64,000 nucleotides of DNA. It comes from Lachnospiraceae bacterium (GTDB taxonomy: Bacteria > Bacillota > Clostridia > Lachnospirales > Lachnospiraceae). A program made the translations under genes and the position numbers. The notes beneath the pieces are model-generated. The model was not told the DNA's origin and searched no databases. It worked only from the letters and a program-made list of their open reading frames with translations. Shown one piece after another: positions 152 through 34,935 of the stretch; the stretch's first letter is position 1; every line of letters starts with the position of its first letter. The DNA lies in contig SVFD01000004.1 of the NCBI GenBank assembly GCA_015057025.1, forward strand, positions 1 through 64,000, given 5' to 3'.

Positions 152-526
152 CTATTCCGGCTTCTGCAACTCAAAAATATCATTATCTATCAATTTGACA
201 TTTCCCCTAAAATACGCCATCAATGCGTACTCAATTCTTTCCAAGTAATCAACATAGTTCTCCGGAAAATTCTCTAAAGTGAAATCATCATTCGGATCAA
301 AGTGAAAAACAATATACTTCAATAGTCTTTGATAATTTTGCGTGATTTGTTCTGCTATTTCCATTGACCGTTCTTCAACACATAAAGTCAATGCAGTTAT
401 GCTTTCATAAAACTCCCAAAATGCTTCCTCAGAAAAGTAATTCTTTTCATGAAGAAAAAACATAAAACTGTTATTTTCTATTTTGTAATTATCAAGCATT
501 ATTTGTTTCGCAATTTCAGTTTTCAT
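152..526 (-). CDS. Hypothetical protein, 124 aa, translationally linked to aroA
   Basis: I do not recognise this family. The 124-residue product is acidic, has no signal peptide or membrane segment, and is rich in aromatic residues and glutamate (for example FWEFYESI and a YxxLLKYIVFHF stretch), as expected of a small soluble helical protein. Its ATG lies inside the end of aroA: the two frames overlap by 11 bases (516-526), and an AAAGG sequence within the aroA tail is the only ribosome binding site. This implies translational coupling with aroA. The position in an aromatic biosynthesis operon suggests, without proof, co-expression with that pathway. It could also be a small immunity-like protein; nothing in the sequence decides this. 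Confidence 0.6.
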   Translation of the reverse strand: MKTEIAKQIMLDNYKIENNSFMFFLHEKNYFSEEAFWEFYESITALTLCVEERSMEIAEQITQNYQRLLKYIVFHFDPNDDFTLENFPENYVDYLERIEYALMAYFRGNVKLIDNDIFELQKPE

Positions 527-1796
527 ACATTAAAACCCTTTTATAATCCTCAAAGAATCCCGGATACGACTTATTTACCGCTTCTGCACCACGAATTGTC
601 ACAGGTGTCATTGCCCTTACCGCCGCTACTGCAGCTGACATTGCAATACGATGATCTCCTGCGCTGTCCACTTCACCGCCGGTATATTCTTTCACACCGT
701 CAATGTATAAGTTTACCTTTCCGTCTTCTTCTACGGCTCTTAAATCCGCACCAAGGGCCTGTAACAAAGCCTTGGTGGTTTCGATACGATCACTTTCCTT
801 AATACGAAGTCGCCCTGCATTTTCAAACACAGTAGTACCTTCTGCCAAGGCCGCTACCACGCACATAACCGGAACCAAATCGGGAATCTCGGATACTTCT
901 GCACGGATTGCTTTTAATTCTTTCTTTTTTACGGTAACCGCACTCTCTCCTATTGTAACTTCTGCACCAAATTTCTTCAATATATTTAGGATTTCCTTAT
1001 CGCCTTGAGGGGATGTGGCATCAATCTCCGTTACTGTCATCTCACCTGCTATAGCACCCATACACAAGAAAAACGCCGCATTGGACCAGTCTCCCTGGGC
1101 CTGCATTTTATCCGGCGCAACATACTTCTGATTTCCGGGAATGTGATAGCCGTTTTCAGTAGGCTCCACCCGAATGCCAAACATATTTAACACATCCAAA
1201 GTAATATCGATATATGCCTTGGATTCCAGTTCTGTAGTTAACATAATATCACTATCGCCTTGTAACATAGGCAAGGCATACATCAACCCCGTAATATACT
1301 GGGATGATATATTTCCGGGCAATTCGTAAGTCCCCGGCCTTAACTCTCCGCTCACTTCCAAAGGGATAAAATCGCTTGAAATCACAGCACCGTTTGCTCT
1401 CATACACTCGCACACCGGACCGAAAGGACGCTGAGGCAACTTGCCATGTCCCTCCATAGTGAATTGTTTACATAAAACTGACGCTACCGGTAAAAGAAAT
1501 CTCGCCGTCGAACCGCTTTCGTTAGGATTTAAGTGGGCATTTTCACGTTTTTTACCCGATAAAATTCCTGTAATAGGGTTTACATAAATAATCTTATTTT
1601 CTACTTTGATATCTGCGCCCATTGCGTTTAGACAATCAATGGTGGCCTTCATATCTTCCGATAAAATATTCGTTCTGACGGTAGATGCCTGTTCCGACAA
1701 CGCCGCCGCAATCAGCAGTCTATGTACATAAGACTTAGAGGATATGGCCTCTATTTCACTTATGCATTTTTTTGCAGGTGATAATGTAATATCCAT
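516..1796 (-). CDS. aroA: 3-phosphoshikimate 1-carboxyvinyltransferase (EPSP synthase)
   Basis: This enzyme joins phosphoenolpyruvate to shikimate 3-phosphate in the sixth step of the shikimate pathway, in the cytoplasm. The 426-residue length is normal for the family. Visible signatures are a SKSYVHRLLIAAAL N-terminal substrate loop, NESGSTARFLLP (the usual GNSGT-type PEP/S3P loop), RPFGPVCE, and the C-terminal RIKESDRIETT and DHRIAMSAAV motifs that bind phosphate and PEP. The start at 1796 has an AAAGG site at good spacing. It lies 12 bp downstream of aroB and overlaps the next gene by 11 bp, so it is an inner gene of the leader-peptide-controlled operon. Other shikimate genes (aroD, aroE, aroK, aroC) are not in this window. 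Confidence 0.96.
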   Translation of the reverse strand: MDITLSPAKKCISEIEAISSKSYVHRLLIAAALSEQASTVRTNILSEDMKATIDCLNAMGADIKVENKIIYVNPITGILSGKKRENAHLNPNESGSTARFLLPVASVLCKQFTMEGHGKLPQRPFGPVCECMRANGAVISSDFIPLEVSGELRPGTYELPGNISSQYITGLMYALPMLQGDSDIMLTTELESKAYIDITLDVLNMFGIRVEPTENGYHIPGNQKYVAPDKMQAQGDWSNAAFFLCMGAIAGEMTVTEIDATSPQGDKEILNILKKFGAEVTIGESAVTVKKKELKAIRAEVSEIPDLVPVMCVVAALAEGTTVFENAGRLRIKESDRIETTKALLQALGADLRAVEEDGKVNLYIDGVKEYTGGEVDSAGDHRIAMSAAVAAVRAMTPVTIRGAEAVNKSYPGFFEDYKRVLMYEN

Positions 1797-1808: not shown

Positions 1809-2858
1809 CTAAACTCCACTGTTCACAATATACGCAATCCACTCATCCATGGTCATATCCTGAATAATGGAATTACCGATAGTCTCCGGCAACAATACGC
1901 TAATCTTCTTACCGGCACGCTTTTTATCGGAAATCGCCTGCTCTGCCAAATCCACAAGGGTATATTCGCAGGAAATGGGCAAATTATAATTCTGCAAAGT
2001 CGCAATTAAACGCTTGGACATAGTATCATCCAATCCGTTCGCCTTCTCATATGCCTTGGTTACCACTACCATACCAATGGCAACCGCACTACCGTGGGGC
2101 ACTTCGTAATTGCTTAATTTCTCAATGGAATGACCGACTGTGTGACCGAAATTAAGAAGCTTACGCACGCCGGTATCAAATTCATCTTCTCCTACGATAT
2201 CTGCCTTAATCTGCACGCATCTTTGTACCATGGCAGCAATATCGAATTCCTTCTTTTCAAACTGTTCAAATAACTCCAAATCACGAATCATACCGTATTT
2301 TACAGCCTCTGCCATACCATCCGAAAACACTTCCGCCGGTAAAGTCTTAAAAGTATCGGTATCGCATACAACTCTCAAAGGCTGATGGAAAGCTCCCACC
2401 AGGTTTTTGCCCTGGGGTAAATCCACTGCAGTCTTGCCGCCTACGGAAGAATCAATAGCCGCTAAAAGCGTTGTAGGACACTGTACATACTCTATTCCAC
2501 GTAAAAATACCGATGCCACAAAACCTGTTAAATCTCCGGTTACTCCACCGCCCAATGCCACCAAAAGGTCAGACTTGGAGATGCCGTTTTCGGCACAAAA
2601 GGAAAGTACCTTTTCGGCTGTACTCAAGTTCTTTGATTTCTCACCATTAGGAAATACGAAAGACAATACTTCAAATCCGCATTCCTTTAATTCGTTGACG
2701 CACTTATCTCCATACAATGAAAATACAATATCATCGCTGACTACAACTACTTTACAAGGCTTTTTTACCTTAGCAATCTCTTCGCCGTAGTGAAGTCCGC
2801 CACCGATGATGACTTCATATTCTTTTGTGCTGGTTGTTACTTTTACAATTTGCTCCAT
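1809..2858 (-). CDS. aroB: 3-dehydroquinate synthase
   Basis: Converts DAHP to 3-dehydroquinate, the second shikimate-pathway step, using NAD and a divalent metal. The 349 residues show the NAD-binding GGGVTGDLTGFVAS loop, the DSSVGGKTAVDLPQGKN substrate motif, the metal ligands in the AEAVKYG and NFGHTVGHSIE segments, and a C-terminal KKRAGKKI basic patch, all standard for AroB. The ATG at 2858 follows AAGGAAG. The gene sits 77 bp downstream of tyrA and 12 bp upstream of aroA. That gap to tyrA holds no convincing terminator, so read-through from the aroF promoter is expected. Confidence 0.96.
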   Translation of the reverse strand: MEQIVKVTTSTKEYEVIIGGGLHYGEEIAKVKKPCKVVVVSDDIVFSLYGDKCVNELKECGFEVLSFVFPNGEKSKNLSTAEKVLSFCAENGISKSDLLVALGGGVTGDLTGFVASVFLRGIEYVQCPTTLLAAIDSSVGGKTAVDLPQGKNLVGAFHQPLRVVCDTDTFKTLPAEVFSDGMAEAVKYGMIRDLELFEQFEKKEFDIAAMVQRCVQIKADIVGEDEFDTGVRKLLNFGHTVGHSIEKLSNYEVPHGSAVAIGMVVVTKAYEKANGLDDTMSKRLIATLQNYNLPISCEYTLVDLAEQAISDKKRAGKKISVLLPETIGNSIIQDMTMDEWIAYIVNSGV

Positions 2859-2935: not shown

Positions 2936-3814
2936 TTATGTTAACTTTTCGAATGTAGCCTTATACTCTTCTTCCCTGCGATTATCATTCTCCTTACAGA
3001 TACGCCCCTCAGCAAGCATTTTATGTAGACCATTGTAATCCTCTGCCGCAAGCACATCCCTGTAATCCTGAACATTCTTAATGAAGACATCCAACTCTGC
3101 CAACAAATGCTCACGATTCTCTGCAAACAGCTCCGTCCACATATCTTCATTTAAGTATGCAACCCTGGTCAAATCCTTAAAACTTCCTGCCGAAAAACCA
3201 TATCTTTTTTCACAGGTAGGACTCTTAATATATGCACTGGATACCAAATGAGCCATCTGGGATGTATAGGCAATCACTGCATCATGCTCTGCAGCTGTGG
3301 TAACCCTAATCTTGCCAAAGCCAAGTTTAAGAAAGAATTCCTTTGTTTCCTCAAACAATGCTTCATCCGTATTATGATCCTTACACAAAATCATAGTCGC
3401 GTTATTAAACAACCCAAAGAACGAATACTGATATCCTGACTTCTCAATACCGGCCATCGGATGTCCACCGATGAAATGTACGCCGTTTTCCTCGCAGAAA
3501 TCCGAAAGTTCTTCACATATGCTTCCTTTGATTCCGGTGCTGTCCACCAAAACCGCGCCCTTCTTCATAAAAGAAATATTTTCTTTTACATACTCAATAT
3601 TTCTTCGCGCATACAAATTTAAAATCAGCAAATCGCATTCTTTTAAAGTATCTGCATTTAACTCGCCATGGATAACATCCTCGGCAATTGCCTGTTCCAC
3701 AATATTTTTACTTCTGTTGCAGGCATAAATTTTACAGGTAGTGGTTTCACGAACCGTTTTAGCCATGGACCCTCCGATAAGGCCCAGGCCAACAATTCCT
3801 ACTGTTTTTATCAT
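2936..3814 (-). CDS. tyrA: Prephenate dehydrogenase
   Basis: Oxidatively decarboxylates prephenate to 4-hydroxyphenylpyruvate for tyrosine synthesis. The 292-residue protein has an N-terminal Rossmann fold (VGLGLIGGSMAK, residues about 7-18), a GGHPMAG substrate motif near the middle and the HDAVIAYTSQMAHLVSSA helix typical of monofunctional TyrA. There is no fused chorismate mutase and no obvious C-terminal ACT domain. It overlaps aroF by four bases (ATGA), so translation of the two is coupled. Placing tyrA directly after the DAHP synthase fits an operon controlled by Tyr/Phe codons in the leader. Confidence 0.93.
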   Translation of the reverse strand: MIKTVGIVGLGLIGGSMAKTVRETTTCKIYACNRSKNIVEQAIAEDVIHGELNADTLKECDLLILNLYARRNIEYVKENISFMKKGAVLVDSTGIKGSICEELSDFCEENGVHFIGGHPMAGIEKSGYQYSFFGLFNNATMILCKDHNTDEALFEETKEFFLKLGFGKIRVTTAAEHDAVIAYTSQMAHLVSSAYIKSPTCEKRYGFSAGSFKDLTRVAYLNEDMWTELFAENREHLLAELDVFIKNVQDYRDVLAAEDYNGLHKMLAEGRICKENDNRREEEYKATFEKLT

Positions 3815-4818
3815 AATTTCATAATGTCCTCTCTAATCATCTGAACACCGCGATTAATTTCTTCGAATGCTGCCGGTGTAATGGACTGCTGACCATCGCA
3901 CCATGCCTTGGCAGGGTCATTGTGTACTTCAATAATCAAACCGTCAGCTCCGGCTGCCGTAGAAGCATAGCACATTGATTTCACATATTTAGAATAACCC
4001 GTAGAATGTGAAGGGTCAATGACAATCGGTAAATGTGTCTTTTCTTTCAAAACAGGTACTGCGGAAATATCAAGGGTATTTCTGGTTGCGGTTTCAAAGG
4101 TTCTGATACCTCTTTCGCAAAGAATAACGTCTTCGTTGCCGCCCGCCATAATGTATTCCGCACTCATCAACAATTCCTGGATTGTGCTGGATAAACCTCT
4201 CTTTAAAAGAATGGGTTTCTTGGTATGGCCAAGTTCTTTTAACAACTGGAAGTTCTGCATATTTCTTGCACCAACCTGAATTACGTCTACCTCTTCGAAT
4301 AAATCAAGCTGGGATAAATCCATAATTTCGGTAACAATGGGAAGTCCTGTTTCTTTCTTTGCTTCTAATAAAAGCTTGATACCATCGCCACCCAAGCCCT
4401 GGAATGCATAAGGTGAAGTACGAGGCTTGAATGCACCGCCGCGAAGCATAGTTGCTCCTGCCGCTTTTACTGCCTTTGCAATGCCGATAATCTGCTCTTC
4501 TGTCTCAACGGAACAGGGACCTGCAATCATTGCAAAATGTCCGGCACCGATTTTGGTATTTTCAACAGTGATTTCCGTATCCAAAGGATGGAACTTACGG
4601 TTTGCAGCTTTATACGGCTCCTGAATACGCTTAACGGTATCAACAATTTCCATAGCGGATACCAAATCGATATCTACTTTAGAAGTATCACCTACAAGAC
4701 CTAAAATAGTGGAATGGATACCCTGTGTTTTATGGATATCAAGACCTTTGTCTTCTAACCATTTCTTTAACTGTTCATACTGTTCGGGATTGGGGTTTGA
4801 TTTTAATACGATAATCAT
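3811..4818 (-). CDS. aroF: 3-deoxy-7-phosphoheptulonate synthase, type I beta
   Basis: Condenses phosphoenolpyruvate and erythrose 4-phosphate, the committed step of aromatic biosynthesis. I set the start at the ATG at 4818 (MIIVLKSN) because GGAG stands just upstream; an upstream in-frame start would add 11 residues that run into the attenuator. The 335-residue protein has an N-terminal ferredoxin-like domain (about 1-70), which in related type I beta enzymes mediates feedback inhibition, then the barrel with AGPCSVET, RGGAFKPRTSPYAFQG, KRGLSSTIQE and IDPSHSTG motifs for substrate and metal. It is the first structural gene after the leader attenuator, and overlaps tyrA by four bases. Symbol is by role; aroG or aroA(G) are also used for this type. 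Confidence 0.95.
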   Translation of the reverse strand: MIIVLKSNPNPEQYEQLKKWLEDKGLDIHKTQGIHSTILGLVGDTSKVDIDLVSAMEIVDTVKRIQEPYKAANRKFHPLDTEITVENTKIGAGHFAMIAGPCSVETEEQIIGIAKAVKAAGATMLRGGAFKPRTSPYAFQGLGGDGIKLLLEAKKETGLPIVTEIMDLSQLDLFEEVDVIQVGARNMQNFQLLKELGHTKKPILLKRGLSSTIQELLMSAEYIMAGGNEDVILCERGIRTFETATRNTLDISAVPVLKEKTHLPIVIDPSHSTGYSKYVKSMCYASTAAGADGLIIEVHNDPAKAWCDGQQSITPAAFEEINRGVQMIREDIMKL

Positions 4819-4856
4819 TTTTGTGTTCTCCTTTTCATCTTTTCTTTCCAATCATA

Positions 4857-4891
4857 CAAAAAACCGGCATTTCTCTGCGAAACACCGGTTT
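4857..4891 (-). terminator. Attenuator terminator upstream of aroF
   Basis: Read on the minus strand, a 13-bp stem begins AAACCGG and closes on CCGGTTT, with two G-U pairs inside and a five-base loop, and runs directly into a T tract (4857-4863). It lies between the leader peptide stop and aroF, 38 bp before the aroF start, so it can only act as a conditional terminator. Its 3' arm and loop contain CAGAGAAA (4870-4877), which can pair instead with the upstream antiterminator segment at 4928-4937. Confidence 0.88.
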
Positions 4892-4915
4892 ACCTTACTT
4901 TTTATAAAAACCTTG

Positions 4916-5002
4916 TTAGTTGCACGACAGAGAAACCTTATTAAATTGCTTAATAAAGTAAAAGTAAAAGTATGTAAAAAAGAAATTTACAAATCTACTC
5001 AT
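4916..5002 (-). CDS. Phe/Tyr-rich leader peptide of the aro operon, 28 aa
   Basis: A short frame opens with ATG at 5002, six bases after GGAGA within a GAAGGAGA site, and ends with TAA at 4916. Eleven of 28 residues are aromatic (8 Phe, 3 Tyr), ten of them between residues 4 and 16 with the core FFFTYFYFYF. This is how ribosome-stalling leader peptides of aromatic operons look. The last codons (KVSLSC) cover the antiterminator segment, so a ribosome that reaches the stop masks it and the terminator forms; a ribosome stalled in the Phe/Tyr run leaves it free. The peptide itself probably has no other function. It is too short for routine gene calling. Confidence 0.88.
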   Translation of the reverse strand: MSRFVNFFFTYFYFYFIKQFNKVSLSCN

Positions 5003-5010
5003 TTTCTGTC
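4926..5010 (-). promoter_or_regulatory. Competing leader-RNA pairings (antiterminator and protector)
   Basis: The RNA segment GGUUUCUCUG (4937-4928) is exactly complementary over eight bases to CAGAGAAA in the terminator (4877-4870), which would form an antiterminator. The same segment, extended to CUGUC, can pair with GACAGA at 5010-5005, beside the leader ribosome binding site, forming a protector stem that favours termination when the leader is not translated. Together with the terminator this gives the 1:2, 2:3, 3:4 set of alternative stems known from proteobacterial trp, phe and his operons. Pairings are seen in the sequence; the switching is inferred. Confidence 0.75.
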
Positions 5011-5033
5011 TCCTTCAAGATTTATTCGTGTTC

Positions 5034-5061
5034 ATTATAGCACTATCATTTCGAATGTCAA
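5034..5061 (-). promoter_or_regulatory. Consensus promoter of the aro operon
   Basis: TTGACA (5056-5061) and TATAAT (5034-5039) are separated by 16 bases, giving a near-perfect housekeeping sigma promoter. Transcription would begin near 5027, about 25 bases before the leader-peptide start codon. No other promoter of this quality lies closer to aroF. Confidence 0.85.
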
Positions 5062-5122
5062 TAGTTTTTTCTTTATTTTTTTATCACTGCAATCCAATAA
5101 AGCATCTATAAACCTACTGCTT

Positions 5123-6859
5123 TTAAATTCGCTCTCCGGCCTGAATAACAATTTCCAGCATATAGCACTGCAAAACCGCAAAATAACCTATAGCATATCC
5201 GCCAAACAGATACTTTAAAACCTTCTTTCCCCGCACATTTTCAAACTTTCCATGCGTCCACAACCATTTCATTCCGGCAAGCATCCAAGGTATTCCAAGA
5301 TAAATTACCGGCAGAATATATCGCGCATGCATGGTATGTACAAAAGGATATTGCACATTAAAGTACAGGTAAAAAACAAGGTAACTGAACACCAAAACCG
5401 CCCATGCTATTTTATGATGCATATTTATCTTGCCTTTCCATAAACCGATAAAACCGAATATAATCATTAATACTGCAAAAAGAATTGTAAACACATATAA
5501 AATACTGCCCCAAAACAATGTTACATCCGTACTCATCATTTCTGCACTGTGGGTAAAGGTCAATGTTTTTAGGGTACTGATAATAATATTATGGTCTACA
5601 TTTTCACTGGTATTAAAAAGTTCTATGTACAGGTGGTTCAATTGATTTCTGGTGTCAAATAAACGTTCCCATATGCTGTATTCCGGAATATACTGTATGG
5701 AATCCGTACTGGGTTCATTTACGTATAAAAAAGGCATTCCAAAGCGGATTACGTTTCTTATATTCCACCAAAGGCCTAACGGCAGGGATATTGCCCCATA
5801 AAGCAGATATTCCACTATCCTTTTTCCTCTGCTTCCTCTATCTTTTAAAAGACGCATTATAAAAATTGCAGCTATTGCCGGTGCTACCAGAGCTCCGGAA
5901 GATTTACTCATTACCAAAAGACCTGTAATCACCGCATCAATAATCAAAACAGGTAATTTAGGATTTTCATACCATTTTAATGCATAATAAAATGCCATCA
6001 CTGTTAACAACACTAATAAAACATCATTGTTGACCGCACCGGATAAATATGTTGTGTAAGGAATACAAGATAAAAACAATACAGCCCAGATTCTCTTTTC
6101 TGCCTCAAATCCCATCAATTTCATGATTTTATCCAGATAAATCGTCGTAAGCGTTACACACAATACCGAAAAAAACTGAATATTTTCTGAGGTTTTAAGG
6201 ATAGGCACACCCAAAACCGAGCTTATTTTAATCCAATATCCGCTAAGCAGATAATAAAGGGGCGGTTGCGAAAATTCCCACATGGTTCTCGGGTCAACAT
6301 CAGGCAATGTACCATATGCCCATACGTGCCATATATATCCAAGATGACCGCCGCCGTTGGTAAACTGAATGGTATCATTTTGTCTTGCAAGATTAGCAAT
6401 CCCCGTAAACTGTGCATATAGCAAATGAAACAAAAACGCTATAAAAATTAAAATGGATATTGTCTGTTCCGCGGTTATTTTATTTTGGTTATATGCTTTA
6501 AATAAAAAGAAAAAAACAATTAATATTCCCAAAAACAAAAGTACGGTAAACGGCCATTGCACTTTGTTATCTACAAAGAAACAATTAATCATTTCACCAA
6601 CAACTACAAACAGACACTGCATAACAAAAACGCCAATCATAATAACCGGCACCATAACCGATGGCTTCTTCTCTTTTTTAATCATACAGCGTTCATAAAT
6701 ATAATATCCGATTACACCACATATTCCTTCCACTGCCATGAAAACAGTGTATGCTCCATAAGAAGGAATTACCTGTAAGAAAGCAAAACATGCCAGCAGG
6801 GCAGCAAAGAAATATATAATTATCTGTTTATTTTGAATACTTATTTTAATATTCTTCAT
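5123..6859 (-). CDS. Polytopic membrane glycosyltransferase, GT39/ArnT-like
   Basis: The 578-residue protein has roughly a dozen hydrophobic segments and the layout of the PMT/ArnT-like family: an early large extracytoplasmic loop, then the FSQPPLYYLLSGYWIKI motif that recurs in dolichyl- or polyprenyl-phosphate-sugar transferases, then multiple membrane helices. Such enzymes transfer a sugar from a lipid-phosphate carrier to a surface acceptor on the outer face of the membrane. The acceptor and sugar cannot be inferred. It begins 20 bp after the EIIC-like gene and is probably cotranscribed with it. No clear terminator follows before the aro promoter. Confidence 0.7.
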   Translation of the reverse strand: MKNIKISIQNKQIIIYFFAALLACFAFLQVIPSYGAYTVFMAVEGICGVIGYYIYERCMIKKEKKPSVMVPVIMIGVFVMQCLFVVVGEMINCFFVDNKVQWPFTVLLFLGILIVFFFLFKAYNQNKITAEQTISILIFIAFLFHLLYAQFTGIANLARQNDTIQFTNGGGHLGYIWHVWAYGTLPDVDPRTMWEFSQPPLYYLLSGYWIKISSVLGVPILKTSENIQFFSVLCVTLTTIYLDKIMKLMGFEAEKRIWAVLFLSCIPYTTYLSGAVNNDVLLVLLTVMAFYYALKWYENPKLPVLIIDAVITGLLVMSKSSGALVAPAIAAIFIMRLLKDRGSRGKRIVEYLLYGAISLPLGLWWNIRNVIRFGMPFLYVNEPSTDSIQYIPEYSIWERLFDTRNQLNHLYIELFNTSENVDHNIIISTLKTLTFTHSAEMMSTDVTLFWGSILYVFTILFAVLMIIFGFIGLWKGKINMHHKIAWAVLVFSYLVFYLYFNVQYPFVHTMHARYILPVIYLGIPWMLAGMKWLWTHGKFENVRGKKVLKYLFGGYAIGYFAVLQCYMLEIVIQAGERI

Positions 6860-34691: not shown

Positions 34692-34722
34692 TAAAAAACC
34701 CGCCTCAAAAAAGAGACGAGTT
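34692..34722 (-). terminator. T-box attenuator terminator of cysE
   Basis: AACTCGTCTC pairs with GAGGCGGGTT around a six-T loop and is followed by T. The stem overlaps the 3' part of the T-box antiterminator, as usual. Confidence 0.85.
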
Positions 34723-34935
34723 CATCGCTATTCCACTCTTAATGTCAAAGACATATGCCTTATTCACATCACGTATAACGTACGCCCCGGATACGGATAC
34801 TTACAGTTCCCCATATCAGCTCCCGAATGCACTTCCATCAAACTCATACATAAAAGCAGCTTTCAGCCGGTGACTGCTTCTCTCTGTTAGCTTCCTTTGA
34901 TGTACTCTTTTCGTTCATCGCCTTTGTCATATTCC
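34692..34935 (-). promoter_or_regulatory. T-box leader, predicted tRNA-Cys specific
   Basis: The 243-base leader before cysE has the parts of a T-box: a stem I whose lower arms pair around 34900-34891 with 34843-34835, an AGAGAG-type motif, a specifier-loop candidate TGC (34829-34831) for cysteine followed by A, a T-box core GTGGAATAGCG (34727-34737 region) and the terminator at 34692-34722. The UGGA bulge (34732-34735) can pair with UCCA, the end of a tRNA with discriminator U, as tRNA-Cys has. The core is divergent, as canonical ones have GGAACCGCG. The regulated genes are cysE and cysS, which agrees. Confidence 0.82.

Follow-up and report, generated by a model that had tools for sequence, protein, structure and literature searches.

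The aroF operon and its leader

The analysed stretch of DNA, hereafter the window, comprises 64,000 nucleotides of contig SVFD01000004.1 (Lachnospiraceae bacterium, GenBank assembly GCA_015057025.1) and carries on its minus strand the operon aroF-tyrA-aroB-aroA, preceded by a leader with its own promoter, a short ORF rich in Phe and Tyr codons and an intrinsic terminator (Table 1). The products of the operon, starting with a DAHP synthase, fit these codons as originally proposed, although the matches of tyrA are below cut-offs.

Table 1 Features of the aroF leader and of the downstream operon in the window
Feature	Position	Strand	Basis and conservation
Sigma-70-type promoter, TTGACA-16-TATAAT, TG before the -10	5061-5034	-	12/12 consensus; present in 6 genus members
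Shine-Dalgarno region of the leader ORF (AAGGAG at 5015-5010)	5003..5015	-	Sequence reading
Leader peptide ORF, MSRFVNFFFTYFYFYFIKQFNKVSLSCN then stop, 28 codons, 11 Phe/Tyr	5002..4916	-	Same kind of ORF at 6/6 genus aroF loci
Hairpin A (1:2 stem), 4958-4950 paired with 4944-4936	4936..4958	-	5' arm overlaps the aromatic codons; 9/9 pairs in 6/6 genus members
Antiterminator 5' strand, UUUCUCUG, within the ORF (codons 23-25)	4928..4935	-	8/8 pairs with 4877-4870 in 6/6 genus members
Antiterminator 3' strand, CAGAGAAA, equal to the terminator loop and top of the 3' arm	4870..4877	-	Genus comparison; ribosome-position folding
Intrinsic terminator, 13-bp stem then U-run	4857..4891	-	Terminator scan; stem kept in the genus with paired changes
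aroF, DAHP synthase (PRK08673 / TIGR01361 type), first gene of the operon	3811..4818	-	NCBIfam matches
tyrA, prephenate dehydrogenase	2936..3814	-	Best NCBIfam matches, below curated cut-offs
aroB, 3-dehydroquinate synthase	1809..2858	-	NCBIfam matches
aroA, EPSP synthase	516..1796	-	NCBIfam matches

Most elements of the original prediction were recovered at or close to their predicted places. The consensus promoter matches at all 12 positions, and the frame of 28 codons with 11 aromatic residues lies behind a ribosome site and ends with a stop codon at 4918-4916, upstream of the aroF ATG at 4818 (minus strand). The terminator, drawn at 4857-4891, is a stem of 13 pairs (4891-4861) with a loop of 5, followed by TTTG; it is the sole terminator-like site in 4600-5300, where shuffles give 0.3. 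Promoter-like sites number 2 in the region scan vs 2.6 expected, the second reaching only 9/12. The antiterminator, proposed between 4937-4928 and 4877-4870, pairs 8/8 when its 5' strand is taken as 4935-4928. Folding, suggested as a check, gave -43.2 kcal/mol for the RNA 5027-4851 (z -3.37), a value that none of 200 shuffles equalled.

The protector stem of the prediction (5010-5005 with 4931-4926) fared differently: it is complementary in the window, but it is column-intact in only one of the six genus members, and as a conserved stem it was rejected (by word, 4/6 members could form it, L005 and L006 being without the word). The conserved 1:2 stem is instead hairpin A, formed over the aromatic codons and not by the Shine-Dalgarno sequence; this hairpin is invariant in 6/6 genus members, and its counterpart in other genera covaries. 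No known Rfam class was found for the leaders; the five sub-threshold matches in 4790-5100 (E<=5) correspond to unrelated families far below their cut-offs, and the T-box (RF00230) is not among them.

Conservation within the genus

This aroF is found at E<=1e-40 in six of the 31 genomes of the genus, and the same six match the leader DNA strongly (E 4.8e-17 or better), the match being no better than E 0.00256 in the other 25. These 25 genomes, not all of which are complete, lack any aroF match at E<=1e-40 and may belong to aromatic auxotrophs or to organisms using another type of DAHP synthase. The six leader peptides share the core (A/T)YFYFYF and an almost invariant C-terminal tail, NKVSLSC, and a 6-nt insertion in L006 retains the reading frame. 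Hairpin A is intact in all six; it displays no covariation at this scale because its sequence is invariant in the genus. The antiterminator is likewise intact in the six members, its word UUUCUCUG being matched by CAGAGAAA or CGGAGAAA in the terminators. The terminator stem is retained with paired changes, a single pair being broken in L005 and likewise in L006.

Phe/Tyr-rich ORFs upstream of aroF in other genera

In a family sample of 200 genomes, aroF was detected at E<=1e-60 in 89, from which 95 upstream regions were read, 6 of them from the genus of the window; seven aroF places were not included (G144, G223 (near contig end), G212 and partial second copies in G142, G136, G151 and G141). 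At least 8 Phe/Tyr within 12 residues were encoded on 15/95 sense strands, on 0/95 antisense strands and in 0/475 shuffles; with at least 7 of 12, the respective counts were 21/95, 3/95 and 6/475. A chance run of TTT and TAT codons in AT-rich promoter DNA, next to an ordinary terminator, could account for isolated cases, since AT-rich sequence makes such codons cheap and the level of 7/12 is reached by these six shuffles, but the absence of 8/12 from all shuffles and antisense strands argues against it, and we regard this explanation as having a negligible chance of being correct.

Twenty-one loci were accepted by hand as leaders, 20 with at least 7/12 Phe/Tyr plus L047 (6/12, with core and terminator), and all of them have a terminator ahead of the gene, downstream of the ORF. 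The aroF genes behind these leaders share about 62% identity or more with that of the window. Among more distant aroF genes the top score is 7/12, a level also reached by antisense strands, at L110, where 250 nt separate the end of the ORF from the gene; this locus is part of the 95-region count and was not accepted as a leader. Ten of the 33 close aroF loci have no visible leader, L067 and L094 having been read over about 500 nt only.

A second, titled set consisted of the best 80 of at least 592 aroF relatives obtained by a single scan of genome contigs; it keeps near-duplicates (L179/L183, L206/L220 and others) and includes L185, L187 and L218 with less than 250 nt upstream. Within these best 80 of at least 592, at least 7 Phe/Tyr of 12 occur at 46/80 loci vs 1/80 antisense, which likewise speaks against a chance run, and the carriers include Oscillibacter valericigenes, Angelakisella massiliensis, Bittarella massiliensis and Clostridium mediterraneense. 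A terminator follows the leader at 31 of the 46 loci and at 9/12 of the loci with 6 Phe/Tyr; the search saw none at the other 15 of the 46 (all among the best 80 of at least 592). For comparison, still within the best 80 of at least 592, terminators were seen at 5/22 leader-less loci (last 220 nt) and in 12/80 shuffles (last 160 nt), the searched lengths being different. The arrangement had been considered unusual for a Lachnospiraceae-like genome; on the contrary, leaders of this kind occur commonly ahead of this aroF clade in genomes titled Lachnospiraceae or Oscillospiraceae. Two loci among the best 80 of at least 592 (L208, L209), where the ORF upstream of aroF is also rich in Phe/Tyr, come from MAGs bearing the titles Lentisphaerae and Kiritimatiellae, which may reflect horizontal transfer or misbinning.

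In a tree built from 115 aroF proteins, where 68 rows bear a leader, the leader label needs 30 changes vs a shuffled mean of 36.7 (4/500 as low), and is therefore clustered only mildly; this count includes L051, whose leader precedes pheA, and L052 (5/12), a weak leader included manually as the 22nd. An old origin of the leader followed by many losses would be our guess. Leaders found with the covariance model R1 described below are also located before pheA followed by aroF, at L147 and L154/L051 (the gene match of L154 being slightly below cut-off) and, by reading only, at L150. In G303, a Phe/Tyr-rich leader with a terminator (L151) precedes an unexpected target, a gene resembling 4-hydroxy-2-oxovalerate aldolase by matches below cut-offs.

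Covariation and conservation at the RNA level

Alignment A3 gathers nine leaders from eight genera other than that of the window, since L042 and L066 share one genome (G150); L053 was left out owing to its poor alignment. The counterpart of hairpin A is paired in 54/54 cells of this alignment, with 12 double-change cells and a covariation score of 0.806, each of these values being reached by 0/500 shuffles. One position displays four pair types (C-G, A-U, U-A, G-C); the numbers of double-change pairs (67/500) and of pair types (264/500) are unremarkable relative to the shuffles. In 15 further loci outside A3, some from the same genera (alignment A6, without L143 and the second G446 place), 91.1% of the cells are paired, with 16 double-change cells (0/500 shuffles), two of the 15 rows pairing only after a one-column shift. 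The A6 loci are only partly independent, since the model that retrieved them already contains the hairpin pairs. This covariation in both alignments is a further point against a chance Phe/Tyr run.

With the covariance model built from A3 (R1), matches at E<=0.01 were obtained in 31 of the 397 genomes of the family. The 23 rows at E<=1.3e-6 include the nine loci from which the model was made; among the 14 others, 13 were read and all 13 present a Phe/Tyr-rich ORF (6 to 9 of 12). Apart from the window, eight weak matches (E 2e-4 to 0.01) were read: L161 has 7/12 Phe/Tyr, and the other seven have no ORF with 6 or more. The leader of the window itself is matched weakly (E 0.0058, 31 bits); this is the only match in its genome and falls exactly on the leader.

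The comparison across genomes that the original prediction had called for was thus favourable for the aromatic ORF, which recurs, and for hairpin A; the covariation of the antiterminator is weak and the named protector is not kept. In A3, the antiterminator is paired in 79.6% of the cells, no better than the shuffles (78.8%, 145/500), a value possibly undercounted because L049 appears by reading to pair in a shifted register; its double changes stand out (4 pairs, 7/500; 4 cells, 9/500). Covariation of the A3 terminator is also weak (94.0% paired vs 91.2% in shuffles, 16/500; double-change pairs 117/500).

A word around TGCTG corresponding to the antiterminator 5' strand is present in 15 of the 21 leaders, in frame 1 in nine, frame 0 in three, frame 2 in one and after the stop codon in two (L045 and L046, where the stop precedes the word); its varying frame indicates that it is conserved as RNA and not as peptide. 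The six leaders of the window's genus have a different word, UUUCUCUG, in its place. This bears on nascent-peptide arrest, by which the peptide, for instance through its NKVSLSC tail, would stall the ribosome on a small molecule, the Phe/Tyr run being part of the arrest motif. TnaC is an example of such an arrest responding to a small molecule, and the near invariance of the tail in the genus would suit it. Across genera, on the other hand, the tail varies and its RNA word lies in other frames or outside the ORF, so that the tail follows the RNA pairing, and the residues that are shared are the aromatic ones, matching the product of the operon. Nascent-peptide arrest, which we discarded on the frame evidence, thus appears very unlikely. 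The frame switching of this word offers a clear example from nature of selection acting on RNA within a coding region. A synonymous-codon test points modestly in the same direction: the hairpin reaches p<0.05 at 2/21 loci and the antiterminator at 7/21 (six of these in the genus of the window), and the combined z over 16 loci, representing 15 genera given the shared genome G150, is -2.6 and -2.9, respectively, in the expected direction. The leader at L046 is immediately preceded by the end of a tRNA gene lying on the same strand.

Folding with a ribosome on the leader

The effect of translation was modelled by folding the RNA downstream of the ribosome for each codon position. For the full-length RNA of the window at equilibrium, the antiterminator probability is at most 0.02 at early codons, rises to 0.17-0.39 with the ribosome at codons 11-18, vs 0.54-0.77 for the terminator, and vanishes from codon 19 on. 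Since the terminator outweighs the antiterminator even at codons 11-18 in this equilibrium, kinetics must matter. Over the set of 21 loci, upstream pairing of the antiterminator partner has a mean probability of 0.76 when the ribosome is on the core vs 0.14 at the stop, the former being higher in 20/21 loci (the exception being L046), a contrast that is partly built in by masking. Shuffling of the leader sequence (60 shuffles each) offers a fairer control: pairing is 0.80 vs 0.27, above the null mean in 21/21 loci and with p<0.05 in 17/21.

Without a ribosome, the full-length RNA of the window has an antiterminator probability of 0.00, and values for free RNA extend from 0.00 to 0.95 across the 21 loci. 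When the RNA of the window is cut at 4870, the antiterminator reaches 0.84 beside a formed hairpin A (0.98), hence hairpin A alone does not hold the antiterminator shut. Folding of the cut RNA leaves the untranslated state unexplained, and in this model folding alone would cover only part of the switching.

This ability of the antiterminator to form in ribosome-free cut RNA would also be compatible with an incidental ORF, the terminator being merely partial or the output of an RNA that senses a protein or a ligand, as a terminator with alternative upstream stems would suit a riboswitch too. Against such an incidental role, the leader regions examined contain no Rfam family at gathering score, and the Phe/Tyr ORF is the feature common to highly diverged leaders, far above the antisense strands and shuffles. 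We consider an incidental ORF as improbable as nascent-peptide arrest.

Proposed mechanism

Leader-peptide attenuation, the reading originally put forward for the locus, is the best fit to the comparative evidence from the genus and from other genera, and very probably the aroF leader is a ribosome-mediated transcription attenuator sensing Phe and Tyr together, as judged from its sequence and that of its relatives. The computational evidence comprises the parts and their conservation, the covariation in the counterpart of hairpin A, the conservation of the antiterminator at the RNA level and the linkage to aroF or pheA. The locus combines an ORF with codons for the end products and a ribosome site, a terminator, a mutually exclusive antiterminator late in the ORF and a 1:2 hairpin over the control codons.

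Transcription would start near 5027, as deduced from the -10 element, and a ribosome would then initiate on the leader ORF. With ample Phe-tRNA and Tyr-tRNA, it would pass the aromatic codons toward the stop codon at 4918-4916 and cover 4935-4928; with this antiterminator strand covered, the terminator 4891-4861 would form and transcription would end ahead of aroF. When Phe or Tyr is short, the ribosome would stall in the core, the effective window being about codons 11-18 according to the folding model, and would melt hairpin A, freeing 4937-4928 to capture 4877-4870 once the latter is made. The antiterminator would then block the terminator and the polymerase could continue into aroF-tyrA-aroB-aroA. 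In this scheme, the translation of the leader ORF, the stalling at its Phe/Tyr codons and the direction of the regulation are what we infer from these features.

Relation to known leaders

The mechanism itself is classical and has published relatives, the new element being a broad family of Phe and Tyr leaders without Rfam match; the new aroF leaders probably represent a large family. In the literature searched, which lay largely outside subscription journals, we recognised no account of Phe/Tyr leaders preceding clostridial aroF.

The leaders of enterobacterial pheA and pheST encode Phe-rich peptides and form mutually exclusive stems ahead of aromatic amino acid genes. The aroF leader resembles them in these three respects and differs, in a comparison by description, by its use of Tyr in addition to Phe, its target genes and its phylum. 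T-boxes also respond to a lack of charged tRNA through an antiterminator/terminator switch, but they bind tRNA directly without translation, and no T-box match was obtained in the aroF leader.

The uORFC-13-1 motif of Acholeplasma, an aroF uORF for which attenuation has been proposed (PMC8632094), is similar in having a uORF with a Phe-coding U-run, a promoter, an RBS and an adjoining terminator, exclusively upstream of aroF. It is known from 24 representatives, only from Acholeplasma and unknown environmental sources, and codes for at least one Phe (PMC8632094); compared by description only, the leaders reported here belong to Clostridia, have long mixed Phe/Tyr runs and present a defined hairpin A and antiterminator. 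In Firmicutes, leader-peptide attenuation is reported for his operons (PMC9413887), for hisS/hisZ (PMC2965389) and for the S. aureus ilv-leu operon (PMC5794164). Compared by description, these attenuators are likewise ribosome-mediated, in Gram-positives and in place of T-boxes, and they differ from the aroF leader by their amino acids and operons. With the aroF leaders, the Firmicutes, where T-boxes are better known, would gain a broad family of attenuators for aromatic amino acids, which also gives a hint at how gut Clostridia may set their shikimate flux.

T-boxes and a putative DNA operator

Nine T-box matches reach E<=0.001 in the genome of the window, five of them above gathering score; among the nine are matches upstream of pheS and trpB (L126, L131), the trpB one below gathering score. 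The view that Firmicutes usually rely on T-boxes therefore holds for pheS and trpB of this genome; ribosome-mediated leaders had already been described for Firmicutes in the papers cited above. A leader peptide would report the lack of either Phe or Tyr whereas a T-box reads one tRNA, and this integration of two amino acids could be the reason for the presence of two mechanisms in one genome.

An exact CRCTTTAA/TTAAAGYG half-site is located in the last 220 nt of 42 of the 71 leader-less aroF regions vs 2.7 expected from shuffles, and within 400 nt at 6 of the 22 leader loci vs about 1 expected; this count includes the weak leader L052 (5/12) added by hand, and leaves out L051, whose leader precedes pheA, and L091, whose upstream sequence is short. 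Half-sites of the CRCTTTAAAGYG type are found at the promoter of leader-less aroF genes of the family, for example at L040, L041, L087, L099, L119 and L120. The HisR site of Firmicutes is given as cacTTTAnnnnnnTAAAgtg (PMC9413887), and the CRCTTTAAAGYG-type sites resemble this published HisR/TrpR-family site. On the basis of these motifs, a DNA operator perhaps replaces the attenuator at leader-less aroF genes, and a TrpR/HisR-like repressor acting on aroF would be a lead to follow.

On balance, we lean towards the view that the dual Phe/Tyr attenuators form an undescribed, clade-wide family and would be the old default control of one clostridial aroF clade (titles Lachnospiraceae, Oscillospiraceae and Clostridium), allowing the shikimate trunk to sense either amino acid beyond what a single-tRNA T-box can do. 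T-boxes would have been kept for single-amino-acid genes, such as pheS and trpB in the genome of the window, and the attenuator swapped for the CRCTTTAAAGYG-type operator in sister genes.

Elsewhere in the window, a T-box leader (97 bits, 34709-34927, minus strand) lies upstream of a gene that reads by eye like serine O-acetyltransferase (cysE).
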